The position numbers were made by a program, and so were the translations under genes. DNA of 64,000 bases, taken from contig NZ_JQMP01000003.1 in assembly GCF_000744775.1 (NCBI RefSeq), positions 806,001-870,000 on the forward strand, written 5' to 3'. Shown one piece after another: positions 19,716 through 29,954 of the stretch. Under the pieces are notes generated by a model, which ran no database searches, had not been told where the DNA came from, and was given only the letters and a program-made list of their open reading frames with translations. Source of the stretch: Thermorudis peleae. Lineage in GTDB: Bacteria > Chloroflexota > Chloroflexia > Thermomicrobiales > Thermomicrobiaceae. Positions within the stretch are counted from its first letter, which is position 1. The number at the start of each line of letters is the position of its first letter.

Positions 19716-22688
19716 TTATTCGGCCGCAAGCGCCACCCCCGTAGGCTCTGCGGCTGATTGGACAGCTGGCTCGAGACGACTCGCAAGGACCTCAACAACG
19801 TGTACTGGGCGGCGTCCAGTAAAGTGCGCAATTTGCTCTCGGCAGGAAACACCAGCGACAGCGATTACGGTGTCTGGTGCTTGTGCTGCAACTTTCGGGA
19901 AGAGTCGCTCTGCTCCAATCTTGCGAGAGATCTCATAATGTTCTGTTTCATAGCCAAATGAGCCAGCCATGCCACAGCAACCTGCGCCGCTTTCCTCGAC
20001 CGTGCACCCTGCTGCGCGCAGCACCTGCAGCGTTGGTCCAACTCCAATAAGTGCCTTCTGGTGACAATGCCCATGGAATAGGACGTGTGGGCCAGCTTCT
20101 GCTTTCCAGGGTAGCTGCACCCCGTGCTGCAGTTCACGCGCAAGAAATTCATCAATCATAAAGCTCTGGCTTGCAATGAGTTCAACATCTGGCGAATTTG
20201 GCAAAAGATCGCGGTATTCATCGCGAAACGTGAGAATGCAGCTTGGCTCAGTGCCAACAATCGGGATACCGGCTCGGGCGTATGGCGCAAGAAGCGCAAC
20301 GTTCTTGCGTGCATTGGTGCGTGCCTGCTCAACTAATCCCTTGGAGAGCATCGGCCGGCCGCAGCAGGCGCGGCGCTCGACAAGGATGACACGATAGCCC
20401 GCTGTCTCAAGGACAGCAACTGCCGCTCGGCCGATTTCCGGATAGTTGTATGTAGTAAAGGTGTCATGGAAATAGACGACTGGGCCGCGAGTACCATCAC
20501 CGCGTGGTATATGGACGTTGCGGAACCACGCGTCAAATGGTTGCCGAGCAAGATGTGGCAGTGACCGTGCGGGATGAACGCCAATCAGCCGCTTGCCGAG
20601 ATTGCCAAGTGGGCTATGGAGCACCAGGTTCGCAATGGGCGCCACCGGTGCGCCAAGCTTGTTTAGCGCGTGAATATTGCCGAAGAGACGGGCGCGCAAT
20701 GGTGTGCCATGCTCGGCGTAGTAGTGCGCCAGGAATTCGGTTTTGATCTTCGCCATGTCCACGCTGGAAGGACACTCAGTCTTGCAGGCTTTGCAAGACA
20801 GGCAAAGATCGAGCACTTCATAGGTGCGCTTATCCGTGAAATGCTGGGGAGTAAGCACGCGACCTGCAAGGGCATTGCGAAGCGCGTTGGCCCGGGCTCG
20901 CGTCGTATCACGTTCGTCGCGAGTCGCCATGTACGAGGGGCACATGGTCCCGCTACCCAGTTTGCGACAGACCGCTGCACCATTGCACATTTCAATTGCT
21001 CGAGCAAACCCGCCTTCTCGTTCAAAGCTCAGGTGCGTCTTGATGTCAATGGTGTGGTAATCAGGGCCGTAGCGCAGGTTCTCAGTCATCGGCGGGCAGT
21101 CAACGATCTTCCCCGGATTGAGGAGATTCTGGGGATCAAAGGTGGCCTTCAATTCTTTCATACACTGGTAGAGCGTCGGGCCGAAGAGCCGAGGATTTAA
21201 CTCGCCACGCGCGAGGCCATCGCCATGTTCGCCACTCATCACTCCGCCAAAGCGCACAGCAAGTTCGGCTGCGCCTTCGGTAATGGCGCGCATGGCCTGG
21301 ACGCCTTGAAGCGTCTTAAGGTTAATAAGCGGGCGAACGTGCAAACAACCAGCGCTCGCATGTGCATAGAAGGCGGCCTTGGTGCCATGCTCGGCGACAA
21401 GGCGGTTGATTTCCGCCACATACTCTGCGAGGTGTTCAACAGGAACTGAGACATCTTCGATACAGGGTATCGGCTTTGCATCGCCCCGAACGCTCATCAG
21501 AAGGCCCAGGCCTGCTTTGCGAACTGCCCAGACATCGGCCTGGCGCCCAGGATCAAGAATGACGAGCGGCTCCTCGGCGAAGGTGACCCCCGCGAGATGA
21601 TGGAGTAGACGTTGTGCTTTATCCTGCAGCTCAGCATCCGATTCACCATAAAATTCGACAACAAGGACTGCCTGTGCGTTGCCAGTAATGAAGGCAATCT
21701 TCTGTGCGTAGCCTGGTTGTTGCCGGGTGAGGGAAATAAGCATGCCGTCCATCAGCTCAATTGCTGATGGTTCACATTCCAGCATGCGAGGAACGAGCGC
21801 CATCGCCGCAACAAGATCGTCGAATTGGAGTAAGACAAGCCCTGTCTGCTTAGGACGTGGGACGAGGTTGAGCGTGTACTCCAACCCAACCGCAAGCGTT
21901 CCTTCTGAACTGGCAAGCAGTCGAGCGGGATTGAAGCGTTCGGCGATTAACTCCTTCAAGCTGTAGCCACTCGCCCGACGCCAGTGCCGAGGGTAATCGC
22001 GGACGATTGCTTCACCATAGCGCTCTCGGAGCGCAAGCAAGTCGCGGAGGAGTTGTCCCTCTCGGGTGGACAGGCGCGCACGGTGCTGCAGGTCTTCGTC
22101 AGAAAGTTCACGGAGCGTGAGCTCATGACCATCGGCGAGAAGGACGTGTGCGTCGATAACATGATCACTCGTCATGCCGTAGAGGATTGAGTGAGCGCCC
22201 GATGAATTGTTCGCCACAACACCGCCGATTGTTGCTCGATCGCCGCTGGATGGATCAGGACCAAACATCAGCCCATGGCGACGCAGCTTGGCGTTGAGTT
22301 GCGCCAAGACAATGCCAGGTTGGACACGGACACGGTGGCTCGTTGTGTCAAGGTCGATAATCTGATTCAGATATTTGGAGAAATCAATAATGAGTGCGCG
22401 GCCGACGGCTTGTCCGGCGAGACCACTCCCACCGCCGCGGGGAATGACCGGGACACCATATTTCGCTGCAAGCTCAAGCGTTCCCCGAACATCGTCGTAG
22501 GTCTTTGGGATAACTACGCCATAAGGTTCGATCTGGTAGTTACTTGCGTCGGTGCTATACAGCATGCGGCTGTAAAGGTCGAATCGAACCTCGCCATCAA
22601 GACGCCACCGTAGTTCCTGCTCAAGCGTGTGCAGCGTGTCGGCGTCGACCGCCGGCATCGTTGCCGTGCTCGCTGCCTGGATGCTCAC
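19716..22688 (-). CDS. FAD-linked oxidase / Fe-S protein fusion (D-lactate dehydrogenase type)
   Basis: A fused flavin and iron-sulfur oxidoreductase of about 990 residues. Segments in order: FAD_binding_4 (IPRGGGSGLAGQAVGRALIID), FAD-oxidase C-terminal domain, a 4Fe-4S ferredoxin-like region (LCLSCKACKTECPSS) and two CCG cysteine-rich motifs (RRACCGRPM and SGAGCCGMAGSF). This architecture is typical of D-lactate or D-2-hydroxyacid dehydrogenases (Dld-II / GlcD-GlpC fusions) that feed the quinone pool from the inner membrane face. I place the start at the GTG at 22688, eight bases after AAAGGGG; a TTG at 22730 lacks a site. Substrate assignment is by family only. It may be read with the ispH transcript upstream. 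Confidence 0.88.
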   Translation of the reverse strand: MSIQAASTATMPAVDADTLHTLEQELRWRLDGEVRFDLYSRMLYSTDASNYQIEPYGVVIPKTYDDVRGTLELAAKYGVPVIPRGGGSGLAGQAVGRALIIDFSKYLNQIIDLDTTSHRVRVQPGIVLAQLNAKLRRHGLMFGPDPSSGDRATIGGVVANNSSGAHSILYGMTSDHVIDAHVLLADGHELTLRELSDEDLQHRARLSTREGQLLRDLLALRERYGEAIVRDYPRHWRRASGYSLKELIAERFNPARLLASSEGTLAVGLEYTLNLVPRPKQTGLVLLQFDDLVAAMALVPRMLECEPSAIELMDGMLISLTRQQPGYAQKIAFITGNAQAVLVVEFYGESDAELQDKAQRLLHHLAGVTFAEEPLVILDPGRQADVWAVRKAGLGLLMSVRGDAKPIPCIEDVSVPVEHLAEYVAEINRLVAEHGTKAAFYAHASAGCLHVRPLINLKTLQGVQAMRAITEGAAELAVRFGGVMSGEHGDGLARGELNPRLFGPTLYQCMKELKATFDPQNLLNPGKIVDCPPMTENLRYGPDYHTIDIKTHLSFEREGGFARAIEMCNGAAVCRKLGSGTMCPSYMATRDERDTTRARANALRNALAGRVLTPQHFTDKRTYEVLDLCLSCKACKTECPSSVDMAKIKTEFLAHYYAEHGTPLRARLFGNIHALNKLGAPVAPIANLVLHSPLGNLGKRLIGVHPARSLPHLARQPFDAWFRNVHIPRGDGTRGPVVYFHDTFTTYNYPEIGRAAVAVLETAGYRVILVERRACCGRPMLSKGLVEQARTNARKNVALLAPYARAGIPIVGTEPSCILTFRDEYRDLLPNSPDVELIASQSFMIDEFLARELQHGVQLPWKAEAGPHVLFHGHCHQKALIGVGPTLQVLRAAGCTVEESGAGCCGMAGSFGYETEHYEISRKIGAERLFPKVAAQAPDTVIAVAGVSCREQIAHFTGRRPVHVVEVLASRLEPAVQSAAEPTGVALAAE

Positions 22689-22822
22689 TTCGCCTGCCCC
22701 TTTCATGTCAAGGCGAATTATCGGTGCCAAGCAAGCGGCGCGATGCAGCTTGCCTGGATGCTGTTGGTATCAGTCTACAACGGTGTGCTGGGCTATGGAT
22801 GCTCAAGCGACTAGCGTAAGTC

Positions 22823-23809
22823 CTAAGTCAGAGATGCCATTTCATCGTCGATCTCGCCGATATCATGCTGTGAGGGCCAGACTGGACGCGCGTAGCCAAA
22901 CGCTGCAAGCCGGTCAATGACAGCGGTAATGACATAATCAGGCGTTGATGCCCCAGCGGTAATACCGATGATGCGTGCATCGCCGAGAAGCGCTGGGACG
23001 ATTTCATCAGCCTGTTCAATACGCGTAGCGGTAAGCCCGAGCTGCTGCGCGACTTCAACAAGTCGAGCCGTATTCGAGCTTTTGCGACCGCCAACAACCA
23101 GAACGAGCTCAACGCCTTGCTCGGCGAGATGAGTAATCGCGTCCTGTCGATCACGTGTCGGTTGGCAAATCGTGTTGACAACACGTACTTCCCCGCCAGT
23201 AGCGATCACTGGTCCGACAACTCGCTTGGCAAATGTGGCGAACCCGTCGGCTGTTTTCGTGGTTTGGCTGATAATTGCCACTTTATGGGGAATATGGTTA
23301 TTCGTAAGCCACGGTACTGCTTCGGGAGCAAGTGCAGCACACGCTCGGCTGGTTCCGGCCCAAGCGAGAATCCCGCGAACTTCGGGATGCAGCGCGTCGC
23401 CATAGACGACGAGATAGTAGCCTTGTTCGACCAGCTTGGCAGCCAGTCGTTGGACACGGGTGACAAGTGGGCAGGTTAGATCGATGTGCTCGAGGCCGGC
23501 TTGCTGCGCTGCCTGGGCGCGGCCAGGGCCAGCGCCATGCGCGGTCGTTGCAATGCGCTGGAAGCCTCGTGCTGCTGCTTCGGCAACGCTACCCACTGGT
23601 TCGATTCCTCGGGAACGTAATGCTGCAACGACCTGAGGATTATGAATAACGTCGCCGACGGTAGCCAACGGCCCTTGAGAAGCGGCACGCTCAAGTAAGG
23701 CCAACGTCCGTCGCACACCCCAGCAATACCCAAACACCGGTGCCAGGACGATACGTCGATCGAGGGGTGTCGTTGCCGGATGCTGATGATGAAGCGTCTG
23801 CTCAGTCAT
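22823..23809 (-). CDS. ispH: 4-hydroxy-3-methylbut-2-enyl diphosphate reductase
   Basis: 328 residues. IspH catalyses the last step of the MEP pathway, reducing HMBPP to IPP and DMAPP with a 4Fe-4S cluster. The three cluster cysteines are in VFGYCWGVRR, DLTCPLV and NTICQPTRDRQ; HNPQV, TAHGAG, SQTTKTADGF and GGRKSSNT are also conserved. It is the last gene of the carotenoid cluster, 8 bases after crtI, so the isoprenoid precursor supply is tied to pigment synthesis. The N-terminal 15 residues before RRIVLAPVFGYC are an extension without recognisable features. Confidence 0.95.
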   Translation of the reverse strand: MTEQTLHHQHPATTPLDRRIVLAPVFGYCWGVRRTLALLERAASQGPLATVGDVIHNPQVVAALRSRGIEPVGSVAEAAARGFQRIATTAHGAGPGRAQAAQQAGLEHIDLTCPLVTRVQRLAAKLVEQGYYLVVYGDALHPEVRGILAWAGTSRACAALAPEAVPWLTNNHIPHKVAIISQTTKTADGFATFAKRVVGPVIATGGEVRVVNTICQPTRDRQDAITHLAEQGVELVLVVGGRKSSNTARLVEVAQQLGLTATRIEQADEIVPALLGDARIIGITAGASTPDYVITAVIDRLAAFGYARPVWPSQHDIGEIDDEMASLT

Positions 23810-23817
23810 GGTTCAAC

Positions 23818-25359
23818 TCACTTTCCGTATGCCCGCTGACTGCCGGTCGGAAGAGGAGATGAAAGGCGGAACGATCGTGGCGCAGGCCAATCCTGCTGGA
23901 CGAGACGGCTAGTAATCGCTGCCGAAAGGAGGACGCCGGGAATCCCAGCTCCGGGATGGGTACCAGCACCGACAAAGTACAAGCCTTGAATTGTGCGTGC
24001 CCGGTTATGTGGACGGAAATAGGCGGATTGGGTGAGCGTCGGTTCAATGGAGAACGCTGCGCCATGCCAGCTTTGAAGCTGGGTGGCGAAGTCAGTCGGC
24101 GTGAACTGTGCTTCGGTCATGATGGCGTTGGCAATCCCCTGAAGCCCATAAACATACTCAAGTGTCGTTAGAATACGAGCACGAAATGCCGGGGCTTCAG
24201 CGGCCCAGTCAAGAGGCAGGTGCCCCAGATGTGGTACTGGAACAAGGATATAGAGGCTTTCCTGCCCGGCAGGAGCAAAGGATGGGTCAGTGGTCGCCGG
24301 GGCATGCAGATAGAACGCAAGCTCGCTTAACTGCGTGGTGCCATCAAAGAGTTGGGCTAAGAGGCCTGTATAGTCCCCGGGCATCATAATCGTATGGCGC
24401 TCCAGTTGCGGAAAACGATGCTTCAAACCGAGATAAAGCAGGAAGCAGCTCATAGAATAGCGAAGGCGTGGTAAGCGCCATGTCCACCACGGACGCGCAT
24501 CGGGCGGAATAAGCTGGAGCCACGTTTTCGTTACATCGCTATTGGCAACAACAATGTCAGCGGGAATTGCTGTGGTATCCGCAAGCTGCACACCATGGAT
24601 ACGGCCGTTGCGTACGATAATCTGCCTGACGGGTGCATTGAGCAGCATTTCGCCGCCAAGTGCCTGAAAACGTTCGACCATTGCTTGCACGAGTGCCCGA
24701 ATGCCCCCGTGGGCAAACCAGACACCGCCTTGTCGCTCAAGGTAGGGCACAATGCTGTAGATCGCGCTGGCTCGTAGCGGATTGCCACCAATGAAGAGCG
24801 GATGGAAGGAAAAAACGATCCGGAGTTCCGGTGATTGGAAATAGCGACTTGCAAAGCGATAGACGCTTTCGTGGGCGCGCAGCTGAAGCAGTTCTGGCAC
24901 AATACGGAGAAACGTGGTGAAGTGATCAAACGGCTCTCCAGCAAGTTCTGCAAAAGCTCGCTGATAGATACGGCGTGTCGCGTGCAAGAACGCGCGATAG
25001 CCCTTGACGTCAGATGGAGCGATGCGCGCGATCTCCGTTTCATCCCGTTCAGGATCACCCCAGTAGTCGAAGGTGCGTCCATCAGCGAAGACGATGCGAT
25101 AAAACGGCGAAAGCGGTGATAAGACCACGTCACGCTCAAGTTCGCGATCAGTGAGTGCCCAAAGCTCGCGAAGAAGGTCTGGGGCAGTGATCAGGGTTGG
25201 CCCCATATCGAAGCGATATTGTCCAAGTTGCAGGGCACCCGCTCGCCCACCAGGCTGATCACGTCCCTCAACGAGCAAGACGTGGTAGCCAGCTGCTTGG
25301 AGCCGGATCGCTGCGGCAATGCCGCCGATGCCTGCGCCGATGACAATGACACGGTGCAT
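23818..25359 (-). CDS. crtI: Phytoene desaturase (CrtI family)
   Basis: 513 residues. The N-terminal FAD-binding motif is VIGAGIGGIAAAIRLQAAGY followed by VEGRDQPGGRAG. The CrtI-family C-terminal segment is GLYFVGAGTHPGAGIPGVLLSA. The enzyme introduces double bases-pair conjugation, that is carbon-carbon double bonds, into phytoene towards lycopene at the membrane. The number of desaturation steps cannot be read from sequence. Its ATG overlaps the TAA of the upstream cruF/plsC gene (TAATG), so translation is coupled. It is the only desaturase in the cluster. Some CrtI relatives act instead as saturases or oxygenases, but the position next to crtB supports desaturase. Confidence 0.92.
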   Translation of the reverse strand: MHRVIVIGAGIGGIAAAIRLQAAGYHVLLVEGRDQPGGRAGALQLGQYRFDMGPTLITAPDLLRELWALTDRELERDVVLSPLSPFYRIVFADGRTFDYWGDPERDETEIARIAPSDVKGYRAFLHATRRIYQRAFAELAGEPFDHFTTFLRIVPELLQLRAHESVYRFASRYFQSPELRIVFSFHPLFIGGNPLRASAIYSIVPYLERQGGVWFAHGGIRALVQAMVERFQALGGEMLLNAPVRQIIVRNGRIHGVQLADTTAIPADIVVANSDVTKTWLQLIPPDARPWWTWRLPRLRYSMSCFLLYLGLKHRFPQLERHTIMMPGDYTGLLAQLFDGTTQLSELAFYLHAPATTDPSFAPAGQESLYILVPVPHLGHLPLDWAAEAPAFRARILTTLEYVYGLQGIANAIMTEAQFTPTDFATQLQSWHGAAFSIEPTLTQSAYFRPHNRARTIQGLYFVGAGTHPGAGIPGVLLSAAITSRLVQQDWPAPRSFRLSSPLPTGSQRAYGK

Positions 25360-26978
25360 TATGCTTCTCCTTGACCGAGTTGCTGCCTGGGCTTGATGGC
25401 CAACGTTGGCATTGGCGTTGAAAGAGCATGAACCTGTGCCTCGATCATGGCACGAACCTGCTCACGGTCGTCACGGTCAGAGACGAAAATCGGCTCGCCG
25501 ATGTTGAGGGAGACATGCCATCGTTGATCGAATGTGTAGGCGAGACCGACCGGCACGATAGGAATGGGTTGCTTGTTGATGTGAGCGGCACGCTGGGCCA
25601 GCCAGACGAAGCCAGGGCGGAAAGGAAGGTAGTCCTGGTTATCCCGTTTTGGCGTCCAGTGGGGATCAATATTTGGAAAACCTTCGGGGAAGACAACAAG
25701 TGCCTCTCCAGCGCACAGCCGTTGCAGAGCATCGCGAACCCCACGAAGAACGCGTGCTGAGCGCTCAGAGAGCTGGTAGGCACTCTGGCCTTGTTCCAGT
25801 CGTTCAACTCGCAAGACAACGGGCCAGCCAGCACATGCACAGAGTTGTTCCATAATCCAACGCAAACGAGGCGTGGTAGCCCAATCGAGTGCGACAAGGA
25901 AACTGAGTGGCCTCGGGCTTGTGGCCATCAGGAGTGTCGCATCGTACAGGTGATGGTAATGACGGCAGGCAAGAATCACCGGGCCTCTTGTTGGAACGTG
26001 TTCCCAGCCCGAGACATGAACATCAAGACGGCTTGACACAAAACGACTGGCAAATTGAAGCAAAATTCGAGCCACGCGCTCGGTCACTGGTATAGCGGGG
26101 GATTCTGCCGTGGTGCGCTGAGCACGTCGCGCAGCTCGTTGTATTCCGTCTGGCGTATCGGGATGAGTAGGCCAGAGCGTGCCGAGGATTGCTGGGAGTA
26201 CGCCAAGGACGAGAGCGAGCACAACTGGCATCCACAGGTGAACGCTGATGCTCAATGCAGAGGCAAAGGCAATATTGGCAAGGTAGATCCCAAGTGGAAT
26301 GAGGCTCTGCAGCTCTGCATGCGTGAGATTGCTCCGCCAGAGCCAACGACTGACTGCCATGAATAACACGGCAGTCGCAGCCCATCCGGCGAAGTTTTGA
26401 ATAGGCATGCCGAAATACGGGCCGTGCCGCTCCCACACCCAGAACCGTGCGGTAAGTGCTGGGTGCGCCATTGCTGGATCAAGCACAAGATCCCAAACGA
26501 CGAGGAAATACGCTCCAAGCAGTACCGATGGCCAGAGCGTTGTCCGTGAACGGAGTCGCAGGAGGAGGCGTGAGGCAAGCAAGTACGAGGCAAAGCCCAT
26601 GTAGAACCACGAAAGTGGAATCGTAAATGGTACGCGTCCCAGGATTTTGAACCCCAATCCACTGGTATACGCGTAGTTACCGAATGGCCAACCTGTGCTC
26701 GTGCCAATGAGTTCAGAGCTTAGTGAAATCACCACCGTCGCTACAAAGAAGGTCAACGTGCGCCGGGCGCCGAGTGCATACAGCCCAAAGAGCAACATGG
26801 TCAGCATGCCGAAAAGGATATGGAGGCTACCGCCATAGTGCATGCCGAAGGCATAGACGCGAAGTGCCAGTGGGTTGTGGCTCCAAAGGTCAGGCGAGCG
26901 CAGGGCGATAAGCAAGCCGCCAAGCCCAAACGTCAGAGCCAGAAGATGGCCGACAAAGCACAGCCGTACGAGTCGCAT
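25359..26978 (-). CDS. CruF-type carotenoid hydratase fused to PlsC-type acyltransferase
   Basis: 539 residues in two parts. Residues 1 to about 280 form a polytopic membrane domain of the CruF / DUF422 carotenoid family (MHYGGSLHILFGM, then SSELIGTSTGWPFGNYAYT and VVWDLVLDPAMAHP), which adds water at the 1',2' end of acyclic carotenoids. Residues about 310-539 are a 1-acylglycerol-3-phosphate acyltransferase-like domain: CRHYHHLYDATLL in the catalytic block, VVFPEGFPN and IPIVPVGLAY. The His-to-Asp spacing in the first block differs from H-x4-D. Start ATG at 26978 follows GAAGGGAG and overlaps the upstream TAA. The fusion suggests hydroxylation and later acylation of the same carotenoid, an inference. 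Confidence 0.85.
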   Translation of the reverse strand: MRLVRLCFVGHLLALTFGLGGLLIALRSPDLWSHNPLALRVYAFGMHYGGSLHILFGMLTMLLFGLYALGARRTLTFFVATVVISLSSELIGTSTGWPFGNYAYTSGLGFKILGRVPFTIPLSWFYMGFASYLLASRLLLRLRSRTTLWPSVLLGAYFLVVWDLVLDPAMAHPALTARFWVWERHGPYFGMPIQNFAGWAATAVLFMAVSRWLWRSNLTHAELQSLIPLGIYLANIAFASALSISVHLWMPVVLALVLGVLPAILGTLWPTHPDTPDGIQRAARRAQRTTAESPAIPVTERVARILLQFASRFVSSRLDVHVSGWEHVPTRGPVILACRHYHHLYDATLLMATSPRPLSFLVALDWATTPRLRWIMEQLCACAGWPVVLRVERLEQGQSAYQLSERSARVLRGVRDALQRLCAGEALVVFPEGFPNIDPHWTPKRDNQDYLPFRPGFVWLAQRAAHINKQPIPIVPVGLAYTFDQRWHVSLNIGEPIFVSDRDDREQVRAMIEAQVHALSTPMPTLAIKPRQQLGQGEA

Positions 26979-28126
26979 TAGACGCTCCCTTCGAGTATGC
27001 GCCCGCGCCAGAGATGTTTGCGCTGTAATGCACTGTGCCAAAGCCGTCCTGTGACCACAGGGTCGCAAAGTGGGCTAAGCCAGTAAGTCCAGGGACGTGT
27101 TCGGTAGGCGGTACGTGCTCCCCACAACGTGCCCAGGCGAATGGCAAGGAGGATCCCGTTGACAAGCGTGAGCGCTGACGGTCGCTTTTGACAAAATCGA
27201 AGGCCCAGCAGCAATGGTAATGGAACAGCTTGCGTGAGCGTGACAACCAGTAGGTCGCGCCACACGCGCCAGCCGCTCAGCGTATCACGCAAGGTGAGAG
27301 ACCGCGGCCAGTTGTGCCAGACATCGTTGCCGTTACGATGCATCCGTGCCCAAATGAGGCCAGCGGTCTCGAAAAAACCAACTGCAATGCCATGCTGGGC
27401 AGCAAGACGAGCGAAGGTAACATCTTCGCAACGGGAGTGTGCCACAGGCGTGAAGCCACCGAGGATCTCAAGAACATTTCGATGAATCAGCATGCATTGG
27501 CCATTGGCTTGTGCTTCGACCCAGTTCGTTGTGATGTTCCCTGGCGGACCGAGGCGATAGATTAACGTGGTGAGAAAAGCGGGGTGTAGAAGGCCAGCAA
27601 GTGGATCTGCAGGGAGAACTTGCTGCGTTGCCACGCTGAGTACAGATAAGTGTTCAGCCAGTGCAAAGGACACAAGCGCATCAGTCAGGTTGGCTGCCGG
27701 ACAGACATCGGCATCAAGGCAAAGGATCCACTGGTTGTGGGGATTGCTGGCCCGCCATCCCTGTTCAAGTCCCCAGGCTTTCCCATTCCAGTCTTGGGGA
27801 ATGGGAGCAGCATCAACCAGCCGTACTCGTCGATCGCGTGCAGCATAGGCGGCAATGAGGTCGCGTGTTCGATCAGTGGATCCGCCATCGATAACGAGAA
27901 TTTCCGTGACACTCGGCCCCTGTTGGATCGCTCCTTCAAGGCACAAAGAAAGGCGTGCTTGCTCATTCAGCACCGGAACAATAACGGTGACACAGGCCTC
28001 TTGCGGCTTGGTTGTGGCGGGGATGATTCGACGTCGTGTAGCTCGCAGGAGCTTGCTGGCAACAGCAAGGCCAGCAGCGCTTTGTGCGAGCGCAAGCATG
28101 CGTGGCAACGTTGAGCTGCGCATCAT
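26978..28126 (-). CDS. Family 2 glycosyltransferase of the carotenoid cluster (CruG-like)
   Basis: 382 residues. An N-terminal hydrophobic stretch precedes a GT-A domain with VTVIVPVLNEQARLSLCLEG, VIDGGSTDRTRDL, the metal-binding ILCLDADVCP and the later ARLAAQHG. C-terminal hydrophobic segments anchor it to the membrane. In CruF/CruG systems the glycosyltransferase adds a sugar to the hydroxyl made by CruF; the position next to the cruF/plsC gene supports this. Start chosen at the ATG at 28126, overlapping the TGA of the hydrolase gene (ATGA) with GGAGAAC upstream. The sugar donor is not known. Confidence 0.85.
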   Translation of the reverse strand: MMRSSTLPRMLALAQSAAGLAVASKLLRATRRRIIPATTKPQEACVTVIVPVLNEQARLSLCLEGAIQQGPSVTEILVIDGGSTDRTRDLIAAYAARDRRVRLVDAAPIPQDWNGKAWGLEQGWRASNPHNQWILCLDADVCPAANLTDALVSFALAEHLSVLSVATQQVLPADPLAGLLHPAFLTTLIYRLGPPGNITTNWVEAQANGQCMLIHRNVLEILGGFTPVAHSRCEDVTFARLAAQHGIAVGFFETAGLIWARMHRNGNDVWHNWPRSLTLRDTLSGWRVWRDLLVVTLTQAVPLPLLLGLRFCQKRPSALTLVNGILLAIRLGTLWGARTAYRTRPWTYWLSPLCDPVVTGRLWHSALQRKHLWRGRILEGSV

Positions 28127-28965
28127 GTCAGTTCTCCAACCGCGAAGCATTGAATCAGCGTGACCAGTTCTGCCCAGAAGGGGCGATCAGGGGCCAGCAA
28201 AGTGTGGTCAGTTGGGAGGTCATGCCAGACGACCGGAGCAGGCATGCGCTGGACGAGCGCCCGCGTCGTCGCTGGAGGCACTGTTGTATCGAGTGTGCCT
28301 TGAATGACAAGAGTCGGGCACGAGATACGGGAGGCGGCGCGGAGTGCCTGGAGTCCAACTTTACGTAACTCATCGAGCACGGCGAGCGGGAAGCGTACAT
28401 TGCGCAGTCCTTCACGGACTGTTGGATCATCGATGTTTAAGCCTGGCATGCTCTCAGCAAAGAAGCGCCGCGTTTCTGGGTCGTCAAAATCCATCTGAGC
28501 GAAAGGTCGGATACTCGGCACGATCCACCGAATGAGCGGCAGGAGACGAGCACGCCAGTCGCCGGGCAGCAGACGTGAGAACGGGGCAAGCAAAATGAGC
28601 CGAGTCGGCAAGATGTCGGCAGCAGTGAGTATCGCAAGCGCGCCACCCATAGAGTAGCCGAGGAGGATGGCAGTTGGATGCCGGTGGCGAATCTCTCGCC
28701 ATGCATTCTGCGCTGCGGTGATCCAATCTGCCGCCCGTTGCTGTGGCAGCCGGTTCACCTGGCGTCCAAAGCCTGGCAGAAGTGGCGCGTAGCATGTGAT
28801 CTGGCCAGTCTGGATGATTTCATGCGCGAGAGGACGAAACTCGGCTGGTGTGCCCATAAAGCCGTGCAGCATGAGTAATCCAATTGGGCCGTCTCCGAGG
28901 ACAAACGGGTCATGCACTGGATCAGCAAAGAACGTCTCAGGCTGCAAGGCCGAAACGGAGGTCAT
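28123..28965 (-). CDS. Alpha/beta hydrolase (carboxylesterase-like) in carotenoid operon
   Basis: 280 residues. The oxyanion-hole segment is LLMLHGFMGTPAEF, the nucleophile elbow GYSMGGALA, the acid in GTLDTTVP and the catalytic His in PTDHTLLAP, as in carboxylesterase / monoacylglycerol lipase relatives. GGGAGGATAACAGCG precedes the ATG and overlaps the crtB stop. It is between crtB and the glycosyltransferase in a run of overlapping genes, so it is probably part of pigment or lipid handling, for example carotenoid ester turnover. That role is inferred only from position. Confidence 0.82.
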   Translation of the reverse strand: MTSVSALQPETFFADPVHDPFVLGDGPIGLLMLHGFMGTPAEFRPLAHEIIQTGQITCYAPLLPGFGRQVNRLPQQRAADWITAAQNAWREIRHRHPTAILLGYSMGGALAILTAADILPTRLILLAPFSRLLPGDWRARLLPLIRWIVPSIRPFAQMDFDDPETRRFFAESMPGLNIDDPTVREGLRNVRFPLAVLDELRKVGLQALRAASRISCPTLVIQGTLDTTVPPATTRALVQRMPAPVVWHDLPTDHTLLAPDRPFWAELVTLIQCFAVGELT

Positions 28966-28970
28966 CGCTG

Positions 28971-29954
28971 TTATCCTCCCATATAACGATTTCGGACGTG
29001 TTCCCAGAGCATCAGAACAGCGACAATCAGTGCTTCACTGAGCTTCTCGTCAAAACTCGTCGCGGCGCGGCCACGTAAGGTGTCGTAGCCACGTGCTTCA
29101 ATGCGATCAAGGATGCGACGGTAGAGACGTGCAGCGAGCACGATAGCGAACCGCGACCGAAGCGGCAAGTATGGCACTCCCCGTAGCCCAAGCATGTAGT
29201 AACTTTCAGCACGTACGCGGTGGAACTGAAGGAGCGCGCGTAAACGGTCATCTGGCCCTTGGCCGGAGACTGCCCAGGACCGTATTGTCACAGGATCAAG
29301 GCCGAAGCGGTGCAGTTCATCTTGGGGAAGGTAGATACGATTATGGCGAAGATCTTCTCCGAGGTCACGCAGGATATTCGTGAGCTGCATGGCAATGCCG
29401 AGGTGCTCGGCTGCTTGCAATGCGGCTGCGCTGCGCGCGCCGAGCACACATGCCATGATGATTCCGACTGTTCCAGCAACTTGGTAACAGTACTTGCGTA
29501 GTGCCGCAAACGAAGGAAGAAAGACCGGGCCAAGGTCATACTCAAGACCATCGAGAAAATCAAGAAAGGGTGCCACGGGAAGCGCATACTGCTGGATGAG
29601 TGTGTCGAGCATACTACCAAGTGGTTCTCGTGGTGCAATACAGCGGGGGGAGGTCTGAAACCACGATCGCCAGGCAGCCAGTTCTTCCTGCGCCGCTTGA
29701 CGTGCAGACTGGTCAAGTGGCTGTGCATCGACAAGATCATCGAGTGTACGGAAGAAGGCGTAAAGTGTGATAGTATGAAAGCGAGAAGGCATTGGCAAGA
29801 AGTATGTGGCGAAGGTAAACGTTTTCGCGTGCTGGGCCATGAGTCGATCGAAAGAGGGAACTGCACGGTATGGCTTCGAAGACAACTCGTCTGCCTTCGT
29901 CCACAAGACTGGCGTCTCGATCGAGGTGCCCCTGCCGCCGCTTGCCCGCTCCAT
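28971..29954 (-). CDS. crtB: Phytoene/squalene synthase family protein
   Basis: 327 residues. The two Asp-rich substrate-binding motifs are FRTLDDLVD and LRDLGEDLRHNRIYLP, with AKTFTFATYFLP at the front as in CrtB proteins. It condenses two geranylgeranyl diphosphates to phytoene, the entry step to carotenoids. It is the first gene of the cluster that continues with hydrolase, glycosyltransferase, cruF/plsC, crtI and ispH, all spaced by 8 bases or less. An AGGT site lies before the ATG at 29954; the first 30 residues are poorly conserved, so an internal start remains possible. Confidence 0.93.
   Translation of the reverse strand: MERASGGRGTSIETPVLWTKADELSSKPYRAVPSFDRLMAQHAKTFTFATYFLPMPSRFHTITLYAFFRTLDDLVDAQPLDQSARQAAQEELAAWRSWFQTSPRCIAPREPLGSMLDTLIQQYALPVAPFLDFLDGLEYDLGPVFLPSFAALRKYCYQVAGTVGIIMACVLGARSAAALQAAEHLGIAMQLTNILRDLGEDLRHNRIYLPQDELHRFGLDPVTIRSWAVSGQGPDDRLRALLQFHRVRAESYYMLGLRGVPYLPLRSRFAIVLAARLYRRILDRIEARGYDTLRGRAATSFDEKLSEALIVAVLMLWEHVRNRYMGG

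Follow-up and report, generated by a model that had tools for sequence, protein, structure and literature searches.

A Thermomicrobium roseum-type carotenoid cassette with a CruF-PlsC fusion in Thermorudis peleae, probably for an acylated carotenoid glycoside

Described pathways for acylated carotenoid glycosides

The closest described system is a carotenoid cluster of the same kind in Thermomicrobium roseum (trd_1158-trd_1167), which, according to section 8 of Wu et al. (2009; PMC2615216), includes a hydratase with a C-terminal acyltransferase domain. HPLC and saponification evidence for acylated oscillol diglycosides is presented in that paper: the pigments of T. roseum are very hydrophobic, saponification converts them into a polar glycoside and the chromophore comprises 13 conjugated double bonds. 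A membrane-stabilising role of the pigment was also proposed there, and the same idea in the initial annotation of the present DNA agrees with this proposal for an equivalent cluster. Within a literature search that was thin on subscription papers, Wu et al. (2009; PMC2615216) was the only source found to name a fusion of CruF with an acyltransferase. In the available parts of other texts, CruF is mentioned once, and neither Thermomicrobium nor an acyltransferase was found (Klassen, 2010; PMC2889829), a gene for the 2-hydroxylation of oscillol was not found (gemmatoxanthin paper; PMC8342508) and carotenoids are mentioned in general terms only (Ward, 2018; PMC5826079).

Related pathways are described from Chloroflexus and Herpetosiphon, where CruF, CruC and CruD (a 1',2'-hydratase, a 1'-OH glycosyltransferase and an acyltransferase) yield glycoside fatty-acyl esters (PMC4155588, PMC3368417). 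In these organisms, cruF, cruC and cruD are separate genes accompanied by a lycopene cyclase, and the pigments are monocyclic, whereas in T. peleae the hydratase and the acyltransferase are fused and a convincing cyclase was not found.

Operon layout and behaviour of the cassette

The locus lies in a window of 64,000 nucleotides (the whole stretch of T. peleae DNA analysed), in which the following features were identified, by position:

28971-29954, minus strand: crtB, 327 aa, SQS_PSY family, probable 15-cis-phytoene synthase (PF00494, 229 bits)
28123-28965, minus strand: alpha/beta hydrolase, 280 aa, S33, monoacylglycerol-lipase/Est30-like (PF12146, 64 bits)
26978-28126, minus strand: GT2 glycosyltransferase, 382 aa, CruG-like, probable carotenoid O-glycosyltransferase (PF00535, 70 bits)
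25359-26978, minus strand: CruF::PlsC fusion, 539 aa, single ORF (PF04240, 221 bits; PF01553, 49.5 bits)
23818-25359, minus strand: crtI, phytoene desaturase family, 513 aa (Amino_oxidase, 169 bits; TIGR02734, 562.5 bits)
22823-23809, minus strand: ispH, HMBPP reductase, 328 aa (LYTB, 243 bits; TIGR00216, 234.6 bits)
19716-22730: FADox, FAD/Fe-S oxidase, flanking the cassette

The six-gene operon spans positions 29954-22823 of the minus strand in the order crtB, hydrolase, GT2, CruF::PlsC, crtI and ispH. Gaps of 5 and 8 bases separate crtB from the hydrolase gene and crtI from ispH, respectively; the hydrolase and GT2 genes overlap by 4 bases (ATGA), while the GT2/CruF and PlsC/crtI junctions overlap by 1 base each (TAATG). 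The order, the overlaps and the gaps of 8 bases or less given in the initial annotation are borne out by the ORFs, the junction sequence and the family matches, and chance is far from accounting for six related genes in such an order. A scan for promoter and terminator consensus sequences returned counts at or below the chance level and was uninformative.

Set against the published text (not the sequences) of the T. roseum cluster, the locus likewise groups crtB and crtI with GT2 and a CruF that carries an acyltransferase domain at its C-terminus, the counterparts being trd_1159, trd_1163, trd_1161 and trd_1162, respectively; trd_1162 is described as a 1,1'-hydroxylase with a C-terminal acyltransferase domain, like CruF::PlsC (PMC2615216). 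The likeness extends to the glycolate-oxidase paralogue trd_1165 and to the absence of a lycopene cyclase, and the places of trd_1160 (conserved hypothetical) and trd_1164 are held in T. peleae by the hydrolase and ispH. The GT2 of T. roseum is named CruC in that paper, whereas the one in T. peleae best matches CruG in NCBIfam. Since a cluster of the same kind, including the fused enzyme, was described from T. roseum in 2009, the present one is an ordinary further example, and its reading in terms of an acylated carotenoid glycoside is well supported but not new. The analysis carries the 2009 proposal over to further genomes and reduces the questions it left open: the neighbouring oxidase appears unlikely as the C-2 hydroxylase, and a CrtD-like gene becomes a candidate for the extra desaturation.

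CruF and CruG belong to the cyanobacterial myxol 2'-fucoside pathway. The two systems resemble each other in that a hydratase of CruF type is paired with a GT2 of CruG type; however, the scores in T. peleae fall under the equivalog cut-offs, an acyltransferase domain is present and a cyclase is absent. The CruF domain scores 220.8 bits against PF04240, over the gathering score of 25, but the whole protein reaches 291.5 bits against NF045693, where the cut-off is 400, and is filed as CruF-like within the PF04240 family; similarly, the GT2 is filed as CruG-like, since its best match among 13 NCBIfam families (NF045692, CruG) scores 311 bits, under the cut-off of 600. The GT2 gene lies immediately upstream of CruF in 30 of the 34 distinct loci compared. 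A PHROGs search with the GT2 returned weak phage glycosyltransferase matches only.

The identical six-gene order between a TetR gene and FADox recurs in five relatives (L052, L054, L056, L057 and L062). Since TetR and FADox adjoin each other in two genomes devoid of the cassette (G005 and G011), the six genes behave as one unit, which is either complete or wholly missing between these neighbours. TetR remains at the site where the cassette is absent, and a role as its dedicated regulator is therefore unsupported. FADox occurs in 18 of the 21 genomes (E <= 1e-100), three of which (G005, G010 and G011) have no strong CruF match; further, it lies ~240 kb from the CruF gene in G001 and on a different contig in G003, G008 and G025. 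Being common in genomes without CruF, FADox is unlikely to be a pathway member or a 2,2'-hydroxylase and is poorly suited to fill the place of the missing C-2 hydroxylase.

The fused protein and the acceptor of the acyl group

CruF::PlsC combines a membrane carotenoid 1,2-hydratase domain (residues ~1-270; PF04240 match at 50-262) with a PlsC-like acyltransferase domain (residues ~296-530; PF01553 match at 320-478), the latter scoring over the PF01553 gathering score of 23. In the structure model of the protein (pLDDT 88), the C-terminal half adopts the PlsC/GPAT fold, aligning with PlsC 5kym at Z 16.7 (200 aligned, rmsd 3.8) and with PatA at Z 12.4, while the sequence of the domain has no significant match among solved structures (5kym, E 0.67). 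PatA acylates a mannose. For the CruF half, MvINS was considered as a relative and rejected, the Z values of its best rows (7.9 and 7.8) being too low for trust.

Motif I of the acyltransferase domain reads HYHHLYD in the window. Its pattern, HxHHxxD (HX5D type), is present in all 30 PlsC domains aligned and an FPE motif in 28 of them. A canonical PlsC (LPA acyltransferase) has HX4D at motif I, a reading possible in just 5 of the 30, and the T. peleae domain deviates from it. A spacing of five residues between the His and Asp of motif I is described for other members of the PlsC superfamily, namely SalA (PMC8319176) and fungal GPATs (PMC4207751); these act on other acceptors, whereas the HxHHxxD pattern together with the linkage to CruF belongs to the CruF-linked group.

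CruF and PlsC share a single ORF in 14 of the 34 distinct loci and are separate neighbouring ORFs in 16, the other 4 having CruF only; in six further loci with CruF, PlsC is separate from it in each case. The recurrent fusion or adjacency constitutes a repeated linkage of hydration with acylation. In Chloroflexota, Eremiobacterota and Rhodospirillales MAGs, the PlsC domain keeps company with CruF and GT2, either fused to CruF or adjacent. No record in a plasmid search reached 80% coverage of the fusion. The acceptor of the acyl group would be the sugar of the carotenoid glycoside. Alternatively, the domain might acylate a membrane-lipid precursor (a lysolipid or a long-chain 1,2-diol), with the fusion to CruF only co-placing both in the membrane and the glycoside staying unacylated. 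The solved structures nearest to the domain, the glycerolipid acyltransferases PlsC and GPAT, lend themselves to this explanation, as do the diol membrane lipids and the lack of a plsB homologue described for T. roseum, but it is rendered improbable by the company of CruF and GT2 across these lineages, a motif that differs from that of PlsC, another PlsC-like match in the genome (G000:C3:1259898-1260080) and the saponifiable pigments of T. roseum (PMC2615216).

Acyl transfer (or removal) could also be assigned to the alpha/beta hydrolase, the PlsC domain being inactive. The best solved relatives of the hydrolase are thermostable monoacylglycerol lipases (E 1e-18), and its kept Ser-Asp-His set (GYSMGG, Asp and His motif columns), its position within the operon and the unusual spacing of PlsC motif I are in keeping with such a role. 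Nevertheless, the gene is present in 14 of the 34 distinct loci and missing from five (L003, L004, L007, L058 and L065) that keep crtB, GT2, CruF and PlsC; the PlsC motifs are conserved at the frequencies given above, and SalA and the fungal GPATs already exhibit the HX5D spacing, which makes this assignment highly improbable.

With sugar acylation by the fused domain as the preferred reading, the HX5D acyltransferase would be a compact enzyme, open to testing, for the production of acylated carotenoid glycosides. A more far-reaching proposal is that CruF::PlsC is bifunctional (hydrating the end group and, after the GT2 step, acylating the sugar at the same end), that its C-terminal domain represents a distinct, carotenoid-sugar-specific HX5D (HxHHxxD) class and that the enzyme is mobile with a dedicated spare ispH in a block gained or lost as a whole between fixed neighbours; this is put forward tentatively, and taken together we lean against it.

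Chain length, desaturation and the proposed pathway

CrtB is the only SQS_PSY match of the genome, and its chain-length specificity bears on the product. Its best NCBIfam match is HpnD (212 bits, under the cut-off of 278.6), it reaches the cut-off of no CrtB equivalog in that comparison and its best PDB match is CrtM 8is6, slightly ahead of a phytoene synthase; these rankings would suit a CrtM/HpnD-like C30 synthase and a C30 (diapo) carotenoid glycoside ester as the pathway product. However, Thr50 of CrtB aligns with the Phe of the C30 enzyme CrtM, and T, S, A or C stands at this position in 16 of the 17 alignment rows, so that a C40 product is favoured by the small residue. Furthermore, the families matched by CruF act on chains of C40 or longer, and an end-capped C30 chain would hardly accommodate a chromophore of 13 conjugated double bonds such as that of T. 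roseum. A C30 product is thus very unlikely.

Taken together, the locus is likely to be a carotenoid cassette of the T. roseum kind yielding an acyclic, end-capped, acylated carotenoid glycoside. Judging from the gene families and the T. roseum pigment work, IspH would supply extra IPP/DMAPP, CrtB would form C40 phytoene and CrtI would carry its desaturation towards lycopene; hydration of the psi-end double bond by the membrane CruF domain would give a tertiary 1(1')-hydroxyl, the GT2 would attach a sugar to an end-group hydroxyl (C-1 or C-2) and the fused PlsC-like domain would esterify this sugar with a fatty acid, the resulting red pigment presumably residing in the membrane. The product class put forward in the initial annotation (an acyclic, glycosylated, acylated C40 carotenoid) is supported, in agreement with the T. 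roseum report (PMC2615216), the synteny, the CruF/PlsC linkage and the PlsC-like fold.

The cluster itself contains no cyclase, ketolase or dioxygenase gene, as had been claimed. Across the genome, a convincing lycopene cyclase was not found with the PF05834 and PF18916 profiles: PF05834 matched two N-terminal FAD-binding stubs at 23 bits each, one of which passed the 23.4-bit cut-off (23.7) when scored with neighbours in frame, PF18916 had no match and no RPE65-type dioxygenase was detected. CrtI is the only protein of the genome over the TIGR02734 cut-off (238.1). CrtO-like and CrtD-like proteins are encoded outside the cluster, and the CrtD-like desaturase, whose gene (G000:C3:885310-886893) lies ~50 kb away, could contribute a 3,4-desaturation and is thereby a candidate for lengthening the chromophore; a plasmid search with this protein returned distant Thermus and other matches only. 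IspH exceeds the TIGR00216 cut-off of 187.85 bits and retains the conserved Cys and HPE motifs in the alignment. The cassette gene is an extra copy, the genome having two; two ispH copies are present in 7 of the 21 genomes.

A six-gene carotenoid cassette and its precedent

The six open reading frames (ORFs) that the initial annotation had placed in this order on the minus strand are confirmed by ORF coordinates and family matches (all six being assigned by Pfam and NCBIfam), and the tight junctions claimed for them likewise hold (overlaps, or gaps of 5 and 8 bases).

Features of the cluster and its FAD/Fe-S oxidase neighbour (FADox)
29954-28971, minus: crtB, then 5 bases to the hydrolase
28965-28123, minus: alpha/beta hydrolase, ATGA overlap with GT2
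28126-26978, minus: GT2 glycosyltransferase, TAATG overlap with CruF::PlsC
26978-25359, minus: CruF::PlsC (carotenoid 1,2-hydratase fused to acyltransferase), TAATG overlap with crtI
25359-23818, minus: crtI, then 8 bases to ispH
23809-22823, minus: ispH, last of the six
19716-22730: FADox, 1004 aa, GlcD-like FAD domain fused to Fe-S/CCG domains

The cluster is real, has clear boundaries and is coherent in function. This kind of cluster has been known since 2009; the earlier finding is that of Wu et al. (2009) restated for another genome, set beside Thermomicrobium roseum by description only, and the present additions are refinements. In the available text of that paper (PMC2615216), the T. 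roseum cluster (trd_1158-1167) comprises crtB, a conserved hypothetical gene, GT2, crtI, a glycolate-oxidase paralogue and a 1,1'-hydroxylase bearing a C-terminal acyltransferase domain, while no lycopene cyclase is reported. The same text describes hydrophobic pigments that yield a polar glycoside on saponification, with a spectrum resembling oscillaxanthin (13 conjugated double bonds), and proposes membrane stabilisation as their role.

Gene order was surveyed in 35 loci, 34 of them distinct (L063 and L006 are one contig). The full series of TetR regulator, crtB, hydrolase, GT2, CruF::PlsC, crtI, ispH and FADox, with TetR upstream and FADox downstream of the cassette, is found in L052, L054, L056, L057 and L062 as well as in the window. 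GT2 directly precedes CruF in 30 of the 34 distinct loci (exceptions: L015, L017, L019 and L020, the last starting near a contig edge). The hydrolase, present in 14/34, is absent from five loci that keep crtB, GT2, CruF and PlsC (L003, L004, L007, L058, L065) and is therefore accessory. The cassette is a sharply bounded block: G005 and G011, two relatives that have no strong CruF match and are each listed at 99% completeness, lack the six genes, and there FADox and TetR adjoin across a short intergenic stretch.

FADox best matches D-2-hydroxyglutarate dehydrogenase YdiJ in NCBIfam (604 bits, below the cut-off of 1350). A search of 21 genomes at E <= 1e-100 found it in 18 (identity 61-77% in 16 of 17 matching relatives, 41% in G024), several of which have no CruF. 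This distribution speaks against an idea put forward in the available text of Wu et al. (PMC2615216), namely that genes such as the glycolate-oxidase paralogue might perform 2,2'-hydroxylation; such a role for FADox is disfavoured.

The hydratase and acyltransferase domains

In the 539-aa fusion protein, Pfam places PF04240 at residues 50-262 and PF01553 at residues 320-478. The AlphaFold2 model of CruF::PlsC, with its ACYLTRANSFERASE domain, has a mean pLDDT of 88 and a pTM of 0.59 (29-row alignment); therefore each half is usable, but not their mutual arrangement. Structural alignment of the modelled C-terminal half gave Z scores of 16.7 for T. maritima PlsC, 14.1 for GPAT1 and 12.4 for PatA, and Foldseek agrees on the likeness to PlsC; a PDB search with this domain by sequence alone returned no significant match (E 0.67). 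Among 30 acyltransferase domain sequences, motif I reads HxHHxxD in all and FPE is present in 28. Since HX5D spacing occurs, in the available texts, in SalA (PMC8319176) and fungal GPATs (PMC4207751), it is no argument against the predicted catalysis.

CruF and PlsC form a single ORF in 14 of the 34 distinct loci and separate neighbouring ORFs in 16, as in all six further CruF loci (L099-L104); frameshifts in draft MAGs might account for some of these split pairs. CruF alone is seen in four (L011 and L017, which end near CruF, and the Pseudanabaena records L015 and L019). Matching loci are labelled Chloroflexota, Eremiobacterota/WPS-2, Rhodospirillales, Pseudanabaena and one further bacterium. 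That the two are repeatedly fused or adjacent supports their acting in one pathway, the reaction itself staying a proposal.

Among 151 phylum genomes searched at E <= 1e-60, ten match CruF::PlsC, including the window's own; three have CruF only, and six, all of family f24, have two matches each with both domains in a single frame (one of the two in G151 reaches query 1-401 only). These doubly matching f24 genomes are G095, G103, G111, G151, G159 and G175. The doubling suggests that each end of the pigment has its own enzyme, or that two pigments are made.

Chain length and desaturation

Family scores of CrtB do not decide between C30 and C40. Its Thr50 aligns with a Phe of CrtM (8is6), the residue that limits product size in that enzyme. 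Of the 17 aligned rows, 16 have T, S, A or C in this column, the seventeenth (L054) being misaligned there. Only one crtI-family gene lies above cut-off in the window's genome (G000), which also holds two genes that stay below the cut-offs of the families they match:

CrtD-like and CrtO-like genes outside the cluster
G000:C3:885310-886893 (L068:5308-6894): CrtD-like FAD desaturase, TIGR02733 275 bits, below the cut-off of 549.7
L067:6793-8424, contig C4 of G000: CrtO-like FAD oxidoreductase, NF045689 293.7 bits, cut-off 1000

The CrtD-like gene, about 50 kb from the cluster and about 15 kb past the window's end, is a candidate for the 3,4-desaturation required by a pigment with 13 double bonds. 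It occurs in 5 of 21 family genomes, the window's included, and a strong CruF match in 14; its four relatives of at least 50% identity over a long stretch (G009, G013, G016, G018) all accompany CruF matches, and G005 has neither. The CrtO-like gene adjoins cytochrome-type respiratory genes.

The second ispH

Two IspH genes are found in 7 of 21 genomes and one in 13, with none detected in 1. One copy sits after crtI in all seven two-copy genomes, as seen in gene order for G000, G002, G003, G007 and G009 and as judged from neighbouring matches on one contig for G008 and G012; G001, G006 and G025 combine the CruF cluster with a single ispH. The two copies of the window's genome (22823-23809 and L069:4864-5856) share 72% identity and group as sisters in the IspH tree (100/100), and the operon copies of other genera branch apart from them. 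This topology points either to recruitment of ispH to the operon more than once or to conversion between copies. Both copies score below the other full-length copies compared against PF02401, and the stem branch that they share is long (1.06).
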